This document shows, piece after piece, positions 21,363-56,012 of a stretch of 64,000 bases of DNA. Positions within the stretch are counted from its first letter, which is position 1; each line of letters opens with the position of its first letter. This stretch comes from Bacteroidetes bacterium RIFCSPLOWO2_12_FULL_35_15 (GTDB taxonomy: Bacteria > Bacteroidota > Bacteroidia > 2-12-FULL-35-15), in the NCBI GenBank assembly GCA_001769385.1, contig MEPB01000094.1, positions 1-64,000 on the forward strand, in the 5' to 3' direction. The notes below the pieces were generated by a model, which saw only the letters and a program-made list of their open reading frames with translations, was not told the origin of the DNA and made no database searches. The position numbers were made by a program, and so were the translations under genes.

Positions 21363-21865
21363 GAGCCTGTTTAAAATTGGGTAAAAGATTAGATTTTTAA
21401 TATTTTTTAGCGTTTTGTCATTCGACCAGAGGGAGAAATTTCATCTCGGTAAACAGATTTCTCTCTTCATTTCATTGCGTTCGAAATGCAGTCCCTAATG
21501 TCATTTCGACCAGAGGGAGAAATCTCATCTCGGTAAACAGATTTCTCTCTTCATTTCATTGCGTTCGAAATGACAGTCCCTAATGTCATTTCGACCAGAG
21601 GGAGAAATTTCATCTCGGTAAACAGATTTCTCTCTTCATTTCATTGCGTTCGAAATGACAGTCCCTAATGTCATTTCGACCAGATGGAGAAATTTCATCT
21701 CCGTAAACAGATTTCTCTCTTCATTTCATTGCGTTCGAAATGACAGTCCCTAATGTCATTTCGACCAGAGGGAGAAATCTCATCTCGGTAAACAGATTTC
21801 TCTCCTCATTTCATTGCGTTCGAAATGAACATATAAAACATTTTGAATGAAACTTAAACAGGCTC
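21363..21865. mobile_element. GAGCC-ended gene-free element with TAA duplication
   Basis: The ends are GAGCCTGTTTAA and its exact reverse complement TTAAACAGGCTC, a 12-bp perfect terminal inverted repeat. They are flanked by direct TAA triplets at 21360-21362 and 21866-21868. The interior is five copies of an 85-bp palindromic unit plus short arms. No transposase is encoded. Removal of the element and one TAA rejoins the cytochrome c stop codon to its own terminator at 21890. Confidence 0.85.
21417..21829. repeat. Tandem array, five 85-bp palindromic units
   Basis: Units start at about 21417 (first one slightly shortened), 21500, 21585, 21670 and 21755. Each opens gtcatttcgaccagaggga, passes through gagaaat and atttctc complementary blocks and closes gcgttcgaaatgac, then agtccctaat. 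Each unit is therefore an imperfect hairpin. Units differ by only a few bases, which points to recent amplification. Confidence 0.9.
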
Positions 21866-37406: not shown

Positions 37407-38512
37407 TGAGTAAAAAAGGTAAAGTTTTATTGGCAATGAGTGGTGGGATAGATAGTTCCATTGCTGCATTATTACTGCATGAACAAGGTTATGAAGTAGT
37501 TGGGATCACCATGAAAACATGGGATTATGCTTCATCAGGCGGCTCCACAAAGGAAACAGGTTGCTGTAGTTTGGATTCTATTAACGATGCCCGAATGTTA
37601 GCCGTGAACCTGGGTTTTCCGCATTTTATACTGGATATCAGAAATGAATTTGGTAATTATATCATCGATAATTTTGTAGATGAATATTTAGCCGGCCGTA
37701 CACCAAATCCTTGTGTTTTGTGTAATACGCATATTAAATGGGAGGCGCTTTTAAAGCGTGCTGATATGCTGGATTGCGAATTTATTGCAACAGGTCATTA
37801 TGCACGTATCCGTGAAGAAAACAACAGGTATGTGATTTCAAAAGGTTTGGATCAAACAAAAGATCAATCGTATGTTTTGTGGGGCCTGACGCAGGAAAGT
37901 TTAAAACGTACTATTTTTCCTTTACAAAACTTTCGCAAATCAGAAATTAAACAAATGGCCATTGATAATGGATATGTTGATCTGGCAACAAAAAGCGAGA
38001 GCTACGAAATATGTTTTGTGCCTGATAATGATTATCGCGGATTTTTAAAACGCAAAGTAGAGGGTTTGGAAGAACGTGTAGCAGGAGGCAATTTTGTGGA
38101 TCGTACAGGAAAGATCCTTGGGAAACACAAAGGTTATCCTTTTTATACTATTGGTCAGCGAAAAGGATTAGTAATAGCTATTGGCGAACCTCTTCATGTA
38201 CTGGAAATTATCCCGGAAACAAATACGGTGGTTCTCGGAAGCAAAGAAGAACTGGAACTGCAACAAATGACTGTTGGCAAATACAATCTCATCAAATATG
38301 CATCCTTACCGGATAATTTTGAAACACTTACAAAAATTCGTTACAAAGATCCGGGAACAATGTCAAATGTTTCTTATAAAGAGGATAAATTGAATGTATT
38401 ATTTCATAGTACTGTTTCTGCCATTGCACCCGGACAATCAGCTGTTTTTTACGAAGGTGATGATCTGGTTGGTGGCGGAATAATCGAACGACAGTTTCCT
38501 GTTATAAGTTAG
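37406..38512 (+). CDS. mnmA: tRNA 2-thiouridylase MnmA
   Basis: The 368-residue enzyme has the PP-loop SGGIDSS (about 11-17) and the ATP-binding region KTWDYASSGG. The first catalytic Cys is in TPNPCVLCN (about 100) and the second in SYEICFVPDNDY (about 205), with the beta-barrel C-terminal part ending in ERQFPVIS. It transfers sulfur to U34 of tRNA Lys, Glu and Gln. Length and motifs are normal. It overlaps the preceding MORN gene by one base. Confidence 0.96.
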   Translation: MSKKGKVLLAMSGGIDSSIAALLLHEQGYEVVGITMKTWDYASSGGSTKETGCCSLDSINDARMLAVNLGFPHFILDIRNEFGNYIIDNFVDEYLAGRTPNPCVLCNTHIKWEALLKRADMLDCEFIATGHYARIREENNRYVISKGLDQTKDQSYVLWGLTQESLKRTIFPLQNFRKSEIKQMAIDNGYVDLATKSESYEICFVPDNDYRGFLKRKVEGLEERVAGGNFVDRTGKILGKHKGYPFYTIGQRKGLVIAIGEPLHVLEIIPETNTVVLGSKEELELQQMTVGKYNLIKYASLPDNFETLTKIRYKDPGTMSNVSYKEDKLNVLFHSTVSAIAPGQSAVFYEGDDLVGGGIIERQFPVIS

Positions 38513-38533
38513 AATTTTAAATAAGACTCGCGG

Positions 38534-38588
38534 TCATTCTTAAATGATTCAGAATCTGCGCACAGATTGCTGAATCATTTAAGAGTGA
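38534..38588. repeat. Long near-perfect hairpin after mnmA
   Basis: TCATTCTTAAATGATTCAG (38534-38552) with CTGAATCATTTAAGAGTGA (38570-38588) continues inward with AATCTG/CAGATT and a CGCA loop. It gives a stem of about 25 bp with one bulge and one mismatch. No T-run follows, so it is not a classical terminator, although it may stop or stabilise the mnmA transcript. Confidence 0.85.
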
Positions 38589-38678
38589 CTTTCCGTAACT
38601 CCCACATTCAAATCATACGGTGTATTTCCTTCAGAATTTTCTTTACAAAACAAAATTCCTTAACTTAGCAGTAGATTA

Positions 38679-38825
38679 TACCAATTCTAAATATATTATA
38701 GTCCGAAATTTAGCCCAACACACTTCTCGACTCCGCTCGAAATGACAGCGCTGTGGTCATTTCGAGCGGAGTCGAGAAACGAGCGAGGCAATTTAAATTA
38801 GACTAGTTTATATTGATAAATGGTA
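38679..38825. mobile_element. TACCA-ended gene-free element with TTA duplication
   Basis: The 25-bp ends (TACCAATTCTAAATATA outward left, and the reverse complement of the right end TACCATTTATCAATATA) match at about 19 of 25 positions. They are flanked by TTA at 38676-38678 and 38826-38828. Inside lies a perfect 22-bp inverted repeat (38725-38746 with 38756-38777) of the gtcatttcga family. The size of 147 bp and absence of genes fit a MITE. Confidence 0.7.
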
Positions 38826-38873
38826 TTAAATGCTGTTTGGAATTTCCTAAGTAATTTAAATTTTCAACCGGGT

Positions 38874-38942
38874 GTCAATTTCGACCATTTGGAAGAAATC
38901 TTTTTAAAAAGAAAACAAGATTTCTCCTTGCATCGAAATGAC
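38874..38942. repeat. Single gtcatttcga-type palindrome
   Basis: The arms gtcaatttcgacc and tcgaaatgac enclose the inner pair agaaatctttt/aagatttct. It is one diverged unit of the family amplified at 21417 and 45182. It lies 42 bases before the next gene and could act in the leader of that transcript. Confidence 0.7.
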
Positions 38943-38984
38943 TTGAAAAAACAGTTAAAATATAATTTAGATATCGCATAAGCA

Positions 38985-39731
38985 ATGAAGCGAATTGTAT
39001 CACTTCTCTTAATTTTTACCAGTATTGGTTTTGGACTTTTTTCTTGTAAGAAGGATAAATCGACAGTACCAGATATGGGCTATAATTATTTCCCTGATCA
39101 AGTAGGAAAATATGTGGTGTATGATGTTGATTCATTTTATTATGATAATAATTTTTCTCCTGTGAAAATTGATTCCTTTAAATTTCAGGTAAAAGAAAAA
39201 ATTGAATCTATTTATTCTGACAATCAGAATCGTCCAACCATTCGTTTAGAAAGATATAGGAAATATTATAATTCATCAACTCCGTATAGCACTTTACCAT
39301 GGATGCTGACAGATATTTGGGCGGAAAACAAAACAGCAACAACGGTAGAAAAGGTAGAAGAAAATGATAGATATATTCGATTGATCTTTCCAACAAAAGC
39401 GAGTCAGTTTTGGAATGCAAACATTCAAAATACTTATGAAGAAAGAATGTTCAATTATCTGTTTCTTGATCAGTCAAGAACAATTGGTTCCATTCAGTTC
39501 GATTCGGTTTTGCAAACTGTTTATGATGCCGGAGCTATTTTAACCAAAAGAGAATATCGCACCGAAAAATATGCCCGGAATGTTGGTATGATCTACCGTC
39601 AGATAATTGATGTAGAATCACAGCCGGGTACTAATCCTCCTCCAAATTTCTTTCAAATACCTATTATGCAAAGGGTAACATCCGGTTATCAATATACAAT
39701 GACGGTAAATTCGTTCGGTATCGAACCCTAA
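38985..39731 (+). CDS. Hypothetical lipoprotein
   Basis: The 248-residue protein begins with a lipoprotein signal (GFGLFSCKKDKS, Cys about 21). The body starts DMGYNYFPDQVGKYVVYDVDSFYYDN and contains an alternating strand pattern to the end, as in other single-domain Bacteroidota lipoproteins. No known catalytic motif was found. The subtilisin gene begins eight bases after its stop, so the two are likely one operon and the products may meet at the cell surface. Confidence 0.7.
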   Translation: MKRIVSLLLIFTSIGFGLFSCKKDKSTVPDMGYNYFPDQVGKYVVYDVDSFYYDNNFSPVKIDSFKFQVKEKIESIYSDNQNRPTIRLERYRKYYNSSTPYSTLPWMLTDIWAENKTATTVEKVEENDRYIRLIFPTKASQFWNANIQNTYEERMFNYLFLDQSRTIGSIQFDSVLQTVYDAGAILTKREYRTEKYARNVGMIYRQIIDVESQPGTNPPPNFFQIPIMQRVTSGYQYTMTVNSFGIEP

Positions 39732-45171: not shown

Positions 45172-45181
45172 TTAACGACTG

Positions 45182-45589
45182 GCATTTCGAACATAATGGA
45201 AATGGAGAGAGAAATCTGTAAATCGAAGATGAGATTTCTCCCCTTGGTCGAAATGACATTAAACGCTGTCATTTCGAACGGAATGAAATGAAGAGAGAAA
45301 TCTGTTAATCGAAATGAGATTTCTCCCCTTGGTCGAAATTGACATTAACGAAGCCATTTCGAACGCAATGAAATGAAAAAAAATCTGTTAATGGAAGATG
45401 AGATTTCTCCCCTTGGTCGAAATGACATTAACGACAGTCATTTCGAACGGAATGAAACCAAGAGAGAAATCTGTTTATCGAAGAAGAGATTTCTCCTTCC
45501 AGTCGAAATGACAAATTCAAACTGTCATTTCGAACGCAATGAAATGAAGAGAGAAATCTGTTGATGAAAGATGAGATTTCTTCTTGGTT
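45182..45589. repeat. Tandem array, five units of about 86 bp
   Basis: Units start near 45182, 45268, 45353, 45437 and 45524. They read gtcatttcgaacggaatgaa, then gagagaaatctgttaatcga, then gagatttctcccc, and close ggtcgaaatgac. It is the reverse complement of the array at 21417 but more diverged, and is not enclosed by visible terminal inverted repeats. It occupies the whole gap between the CPBP and PBP4 genes. Confidence 0.88.
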
Positions 45590-51284: not shown

Positions 51285-51524
51285 GAGCCTGTTTAAATTT
51301 CCCTAAAATAAAATCCTATATAACATAAATTGCATGGTCACTTCGTTGCGACCCCTTCGACTTTGCTCAGGGTAAACTCCGGGAGTGTATCGAGAAGGCG
51401 GGGAGCATTGCGAAACAATAAGCTCTCGCACTTTCTCGATATGCCTTCCTGAAAAAGGAAGGCTACTCGAAATGACAACCCGCATTACGATAACAAATAA
51501 TTTGAACAAAATTTAAAAAGGCTC
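51285..51524 (+). mobile_element. Complete GAGCC-ended gene-free element
   Basis: The 240-bp element has ends GAGCCTGTTTAAATTT and the reverse complement of AAATTTAAAAAGGCTC (15 of 16 match). It is flanked by TAA at 51282-51284 and 51525-51527. The interior holds the CCTTCC/GGAAGG hairpin. It is nearly identical to 1-190 in the opposite orientation. Between 51528 and the aminotransferase gene only a TAACTTTG promoter element (51741-51748) is recognised. Confidence 0.85.
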
Positions 51525-55913: not shown

Positions 55914-56012
55914 TACCAATTGAAATATAGGTCTCGATTTTTAAAACCTCAGCCAAACCTTCTCCTTGAAAAAAGGAGAGGATGATTGGACTATTTTATC
56001 TTTCAATTGGTA
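55914..56012. mobile_element. Short TACCAATT-ended element with TTA duplication
   Basis: The perfect 12-bp ends TACCAATTGAAA (55914-55925) and TTTCAATTGGTA (56001-56012) are flanked by TTA (55911-55913 and 56013-56015). The interior of 75 bp holds a CTTCTCCTT/AAGGAGAGG hairpin. End sequence and flank match the element at 38679, indicating one family of very small MITEs. Confidence 0.7.

Follow-up and report, generated by a model that had tools for sequence, protein, structure and literature searches.

How does a perfect palindrome come to lie inside what looks like a small transposon, and which of the two is the mobile part? The question is raised by a 147-bp element in an intergenic spacer of Bacteroidetes bacterium RIFCSPLOWO2_12_FULL_35_15. 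The window, that is, the whole 64,000-nucleotide stretch of DNA analysed, belongs to a genome of 5.39 Mb in 110 contigs (G000, 'own genome' below). We refer to the outer ends of the element as the shell and to the palindrome as the core.

The element in the window

An earlier note, made from the sequence alone, had described an element of 147 bp with TTA on both sides, 25-bp ends matching at about 19 positions and a perfect 22-bp inverted repeat in its centre. The element is confirmed at 38679-38825, with TTA at 38676-38678 and 38826-38828, and a count on the sequence gives agreement at 19/25 positions between the two 25-bp ends. The central inverted repeat is perfect as described, but 23 bp long rather than 22: its arms, 38724-38746 and 38756-38778, are 100% complementary with 9 nt between them. 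The features are as follows.

38676..38678, no strand: target duplication, left copy, TTA (sequence; identical flanking 3-mers in 14/18 copies)
38679..38706, + strand: shell left end, TACCAATTCTAAATATATTATAGTCCGA (19-copy alignment; TACCA...TAGTC(C/T)AA ends in other genomes)
38724..38746, - strand: first REP unit, GTC tag toward the centre (perfect 23-bp inverted repeat; the unit folds as a hairpin)
38747..38755, no strand: 9-nt spacer separating the two REP heads (inverted-repeat search; spacers of candidate pairs)
38756..38778, + strand: second REP unit, GTCATTTCGAGCGGAGTCGAGAA (inverted repeat; motif count; hairpin)
38798..38825, - strand: shell right end, reading TACCATTTATCAATATAAACTAGTCTAA on the - strand (19-copy alignment; ends in other genomes)
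38826..38828, no strand: target duplication, right copy, TTA (sequence; flank comparison)
38874..38942, no strand: a further, separate REP-like pair, its tags facing outward, which shares the intergenic spacer and is likewise missing in the same-genus genome G024

The pattern TTATACCA-N130-145-TGGTATTA has a single occurrence in the window, as compared with 0.00 expected from 100 shuffles. Folding of the element gives -61.4 kcal/mol versus -26.6 +/- 3.7 for shuffled sequences (z -9.4). The spacer is bounded by an open reading frame ending at 38512, which we take, by eye and without a family search, to be mnmA, and by a 248-codon frame starting at 38985. No frame of at least 80 amino acids overlaps the window copy, a simple scan of 38450-39000 detects no terminator-like site, and Rfam yields no match above the gathering score for the element, the weak sub-threshold ones being mostly to microRNA families. 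A further 20-bp inverted repeat (95%, 17-nt loop) starts with GTCATT and lies at 38533-38589, shortly after the frame ending at 38512; it too has no terminator score in the simple scan.

A family of MITEs flanked by TTA or TAA

There are 74 matches to the element in its own genome, whole or partial, and 19 near full-length copies of 145-165 bp were aligned together with their flanks. Both ends lie within one mismatch of TACCA[A/T]T in 18 of the 19; the remaining copy, L003, has two mismatches in its left end and was left out of the flank count. The flanking 3-mers are identical in 14/18 copies, every one TTA or TAA (p = 0.0044 against permuted right flanks), and unequal in the other four. TTA or TAA stands on both sides of 16 copies, with a concordant middle base in 14 of these. 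Of 17 copies examined for their coding context, not one falls within an open frame of at least 100 codons. Some copies of the family (L025, L026) are missing one end. The core occupies a constant position across the 19 aligned copies, all of which had been found with a query that contained it.

The same-genus genome G024 (85% identity over the mnmA part) can be aligned on both sides of the target spacer, and has neither the element nor the REP-like pair that follows it. We searched G024 with a joined query made of the flanks of six further copies and of three palindromes that have no shell, the flank pair of L043 being left out. The element is missing at 7/7 orthologous spacers, the target and the six other copies. 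Other sequence occupies the G024 spacers for L006 and L013, and those for L003 and L006 contain other REP-like halves; since the G024 spacers have diverged, the pre-insertion triplet is not cleanly readable at any junction. Among the shell-less pairs, L027 and L038 are missing in G024, and at L034 the G024 sequence differs and has one REP half.

The family thus has the terminal inverted repeats, the target duplication, the many short non-coding copies and the absence from orthologous sites by which a MITE is recognised. The TACCA-ended MITE family with a TTA duplication that the earlier note proposed is borne out, with TAA used as well. That note had named a lack of further copies and of a common TTA flank in other strains as evidence against itself; we find 19 copies with identical flanks in 14/18, the comparison with other strains having been made in other species only.

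The core is a head-to-head pair of GTC-tagged hairpins

GTCATTTCGA occurs 21 times in the window versus 0.16 expected. The palindrome consists of two hairpins standing head to head, each of which leaves its GTC tag unpaired. The main REP type has a 6-bp stem and a 6-nt loop; its loop is of two types, either GCGGAG or a longer sequence that forms a hairpin of its own. Using a pattern that requires the head-to-head arrangement and allows spacers of 4-16 nt, we collected 73 distinct candidate pairs, a few of them chance matches. Their spacers measure 8-14 nt; GTC is near-constant and the base preceding it variable. Arms differ at 3.7 of 21 positions within pairs versus 6.0 between pairs (0/20000 shuffles as low), a weak signal of arm matching to which species relatedness contributes and in which a few rows are chance matches. 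Judged by sequence, the palindrome is a head-to-head pair of REPs resembling the CGTC superfamily.

The REP tail reads approximately GTGTGNNGGC, and the inner flanks of the element (e.g. GTGTGTTGGGC) agree with the tails of shell-less pairs, where conservation fades about 10-12 nt beyond the arms (52 tails from 26 loci; two of the 28 listed loci, L043 and L101, yielded no tail). The element can therefore be divided into a shell end of about 33-37 bp per side and a REP pair of about 77 bp. Elsewhere in the window, at 45181-45533 and 21363-21865, REPs form clusters of alternating orientation that repeat about every 85 bp.

Core and shell occur apart

To follow the shell regardless of its interior, 26 genomes were searched with the end-only pattern TACCAWT-N11-18-TAGTCYAA, with the reversed pattern as control. 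The own genome has 25 matches (reversed control 9, which is not small), G008 has 7 (control 1), G013, of the same genus, 6 (control 3) and G029, from another family of the class, 17 (control 2). Any match at all is found in 8/26 genomes, four of which (G003, G005, G015, G034) have a single one, the level of the reversed control. The 25 ends in the own genome lead into a REP core in 12 cases and, in two, into a REP arm that another element has split; two belong to remnants with a partly deleted core, and nine (eight elements) enclose other interiors, several of them other palindromes. Ends lead into REPs in 3/7 cases in G008, 0/6 in G013 and 0/6 examined in G029, the classification of interiors covering 6/17 ends in G029 and none of the four single matches. 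One shell with another core lies in the window:

55914..56012, no strand: TACCA element of 99 bp, TTA on both sides, with the core CTCCTTG...AAGGAGAGG in place of the REPs

A 191-bp TACCA element in G008 (L153, G008:C53:32034-32224) has a long CACATAG-type inverted repeat as its core.

Conversely, G002, G007, G010 and G011 each have at least 37-47 matches to the element, the best among those listed being confined to the palindrome, and the strict end pattern finds no end in any of the four. The G002 and G010 loci that were read show no TACCA end, and a few matches in these two genomes extend past the palindrome on one side. At none of 26 shell-less loci do TWATACCAWT-like ends, with one mismatch tolerated, lie within 70 nt on each side, and two (L034, L038) have a one-sided match with one mismatch; the same test on nine true TACCA elements reveals at least one end in 9/9 and both in 5/9. 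AT-rich, shell-like stretches are kept at the shell-less pairs L118 and L119 of G008, and some of the pairs counted as shell-less could therefore be decayed TACCA elements. Cores and shells are separable, in both directions.

The shell and its transposase relatives

Two long copies in G013, one of 1010 bp (between two TAA triplets, and with TGCTA in place of TACCA at one end) and one of 526 bp (between two TTA triplets), both include the end of a decayed transposase gene. The C-terminal 91 amino acids of the transposase in the 1010-bp copy match Pfam DDE_3 (E 7e-10, 39.3 bits, cut-off 28.6). Partial copies in G029 show a similar C-terminus leading into the same end; they lie at contig ends, a placing that would be expected of a multi-copy element. 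Relatives of the DDE_3-type protein were found at eight loci in named genomes: a decayed one in Komarekiella (cyanobacteria; L193) is flanked by TAA left and right of its ends, TATCAATTCTC and TACCAATTCTC, and a relative in a Chitinophaga MAG shows a TACCA end with TAA next to it. No intact transposase with TACCA-type ends was found among these sequences, and the 110 contigs of the own genome give no DDE_3 match at all, so the shell family may now be stranded there, its parent perhaps lost or unassembled.

On this sequence evidence the shell appears to be the MITE form of an IS630-like insertion sequence of the DDE_3 type, a grouping that we make because decayed coding relatives have such ends and flanks. 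IS630 elements duplicate TA; here the duplication appears to be 3-bp TWA, and we therefore call the shell IS630-like rather than IS630. A 28-base pattern has no match in viral contigs, plasmids likewise give none, and an exact 38-base right-end pattern has none in a genome contig collection that may leave out the own genome.

A second shell carries the same tag class in the opposite arrangement

According to the earlier note, the same palindrome class also sits inside an unrelated family with GAGCC ends. GAGCCTKTTTAAAWTT marks 35 such ends in the own genome and none in the reversed control. From 30 end-loci and the window, allowing up to three mismatches per end, we paired 20 GAGCC elements, leaving out five unpaired ends; a locus was lacking for five of the 35, and the window covers two of those five. 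The flanking triplets are identical (TTA or TAA) in 12/20 elements, and one or more REP motifs of the GTCA-TTCGA class (up to one mismatch) are present in 16/20. Two elements of this family lie in the window:

51285..51524, no strand: GAGCC-ended MITE, TAA on both sides, two REPs tail to tail
21363..21865, no strand: GAGCC-ended element of 503 bp, flanked by TAA left and right, with a REP array inside

In the 12 GAGCC elements with exactly two recognised REPs, these stand tail to tail with tags outward, and their loops are unlike those of the TACCA core. What the two families share is thus the tag class GTCANTTCGA and not the same palindrome, which in the GAGCC family has other loops and the tail-to-tail arrangement. 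The broader proposal, that palindromes hitch-hike in different shells, holds insofar as cores and shells are separable and two shells carry the tag class; the identity of the palindrome in both does not stand. REP pairs may have entered shells that already existed, or each shell may have captured a pair once and then been amplified.

The transposase of the GAGCC shell was not found in our searches. DDE_Tnp_1 genes were considered as an autonomous partner and rejected: the genome has only two, and their loci lack paired TACCA or GAGCC ends, with single degenerate matches only. At L123 (G002:C6, about 245-400) a head-to-head REP pair adjoins a GAGCCGTTTAAATTT end; in a relative, then, the GAGCC shell may also be associated with pairs in head-to-head order.

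REPs are the landing site of a third element

An element of about 150 bp (GGGGTAATTTTTTTTC...CACGTCAATGGT) is inserted in REPs; its left junction can be read at 14 places and falls at GTCANTTCGA in all of them, nine exactly and five with one substitution or indel. Two chance matches (L057 + and the second of L065) were left out of this count, and the query contained a few flanking REP bases. Most of 10 right junctions continue into the REP loop and tail. TACCA elements are interrupted by the nested element in six loci read: L018, L022, L023, L024, L030 and L033. The nested element behaves as REP-specific.

It has no obvious terminal repeats (L018 1355-1503 in G000:C49; L022-L024, L030, L033, L035, L042 and L055-L074). 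A high-copy insertion sequence (ends about AAGGGCAATGTCATATG, gene start MELIEITKKLNTQKRC) gives 37 matches, many at contig ends (L229, L230 and L234-L238 in G000), and some of its copies sit within the REP-specific element, in its central hairpin. We considered this insertion sequence, whose gene starts MELIEITKKLN, as the parent of the nested element; it starts about AAGGGCAATGTCATATG and occupies other sites too, and we therefore treat it as separate.

How the palindrome may move

We consider it probable that the element is a composite miniature transposon in which IS630-like (DDE_3) ends inserting at TWA carry a CGTC-like REP pair as cargo, the whole being moved in trans. The outer 33-37 bp or so of each side would be the IS630-like ends, and the unit would insert into TWA and duplicate three bases. 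The TACCA...TAGTCYAA ends would be all that a DDE_3 transposase produced elsewhere recognises, and as the whole unit moved, the REP pair would be copied along with it. We infer that the TACCA shell captured a pre-existing REP pair and was then amplified; the constant position of the core in the aligned copies fits a single capture, though REP pairs may also have entered repeatedly.

The strongest alternative, tentative by comparison, is that the palindrome is itself mobile: REP pairs would move by their own HUH/RAYT-like enzyme, inserting repeatedly into MITEs and elsewhere. REP pairs without a visible shell at many loci, REPs of the class in two shell families and the absence of two shell-less pairs (L027, L038) from G024 all speak for it. 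Against it, the core sits at one position in the 19 aligned copies, as a single capture would leave it, though the query contained the core, and a dedicated transposase is reported to be lacking for CGTC-REPs (PMC3733652). The own genome has 11 Y1_Tnp matches, and at none of 10 loci (two overlapping) does GTCATTTCGA occur within about 1.5 kb at up to one mismatch; the looser GTCANTTCGA (one mismatch) gives scattered matches at 5/10 of these loci, none found paired. Four Y1 loci were checked for inverted repeats, and in two of them (L046, L049) the gene is accompanied by palindromes of another kind. We have accordingly rejected the Y1/HUH transposases of the genome as REP movers at these thresholds. 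The palindromes beside the Y1/HUH genes at L046 and L049 are CCGCCTTTCAAGGCGG and CAACCCTGAAAGGGTTG.

That the element is a regulatory or structural hairpin under selection, acting as a terminator or on mRNA stability and spreading only incidentally, seems improbable to us. The fold is very stable (z -9.4), 0/17 copies lie inside open frames of at least 100 codons and the arms agree better within pairs than between them (3.7 versus 6.0 mismatches of 21), all of which speaks for this reading; yet the simple scan of 38450-39000 shows no terminator-like site, the element is missing at 7/7 orthologous G024 spacers and the flanking duplications point to transposition.

The equally doubtful reading of palindrome and ends as having a single origin, an ordinary MITE with a palindromic middle whose decayed remains would be the REP pairs found outside, could draw on the loss of one end in L025 and L026, the shell traces at L118/L119 and the few G002 and G010 matches that extend beyond the palindrome on one side, but is already strained by the at least 37-47 matches without strict-pattern ends in each of G002, G007, G010 and G011, by TACCA shells with other cores in G000, G008 and G013 and by REPs of the class in GAGCC shells.

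REP pairs inside two TWA-duplicating MITE shells offer a concrete and testable route for the movement of CGTC-tagged REPs, and suggest that repeated palindromes in such Bacteroidota genomes be annotated as modules, alone or in either shell. A more general picture, possible but speculative at this stage, is that CGTC-like REPs spread mainly as passengers of DDE-transposase MITEs, in at least two unrelated shells (TACCA, GAGCC) and in opposite arrangements, while a third, REP-specific element uses them as its landing sites. The palindromes would then be a currency shared by several transposon families.

Comparison with known systems

REPIN/RAYT systems combine a GTAG tag with a RAYT gene that has REPs on either side. 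Inverted REP pairs dispersed between genes are common to these systems and to the present family, in which, by contrast, neither the GTAG tag nor a REP-flanked RAYT gene is seen. With IS630-like insertion sequences the family shares a DDE_3 transposase, present in its decayed coding copies; it differs in the apparent TWA instead of TA duplication, and no intact coding copy of it was found.

CGTC-REPs carry a CGTC tag, for which TGTC and CCTC are also allowed, at one end of a short hairpin, are predominantly head to head and occur in Bacteroidetes and other phyla (PMC3733652). The TACCA core resembles them in its near-constant GTC tag and in the head-to-head order of its two units. Their stem of 8-9 bp and loop of 4-5 nt differ from the 6-bp stem and 6-nt or longer loop found here, where in addition the first tag base is variable and there is no CCA tail (PMC3733652). 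CGTC-REPs are reported without a dedicated or flanking transposase, and the same source states their mode of movement as open; MITEs that have target duplications and contain CGTC-REPs are not among the arrangements described in the accessible text of Di Nocera et al. 2013 (PMC3733652). It does report CGTC-1 dimers within 41-bp palindromes in H. neapolitanus, an arrangement that, by analogy, is reminiscent of a shell (PMC3733652).

In a literature search, with subscription papers outside its scope, none of the titles listed is on CGTC-REPs inside MITEs of Bacteroidota, and among the matches listed for the printed REP motif none is on repeats by title. RepRanger tables REP counts for Flavobacterium, and the terms MITE, RAYT and transposase do not appear in its accessible text (PMC12306157). 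A Cardinium MITE is described as belonging to ISCca4, which is listed as IS982 (PMC9769881).

The closest precedent is QMITE2 of Coxiella burnetii, described as a MITE of 150-190 bp that contains a GTAG-REP and is an insertion target of IS1111 (PMC5896051). As in QMITE2, a MITE contains a REP and a second element is inserted in the REP. Unlike QMITE2, with its GTAG-REP and variable direct repeats of 7-11 nt (PMC5896051), the present family has a GTC-tagged REP and a 3-bp TWA duplication; its TACCA ends are associated with DDE_3 genes, and REPs are found in two different shells.
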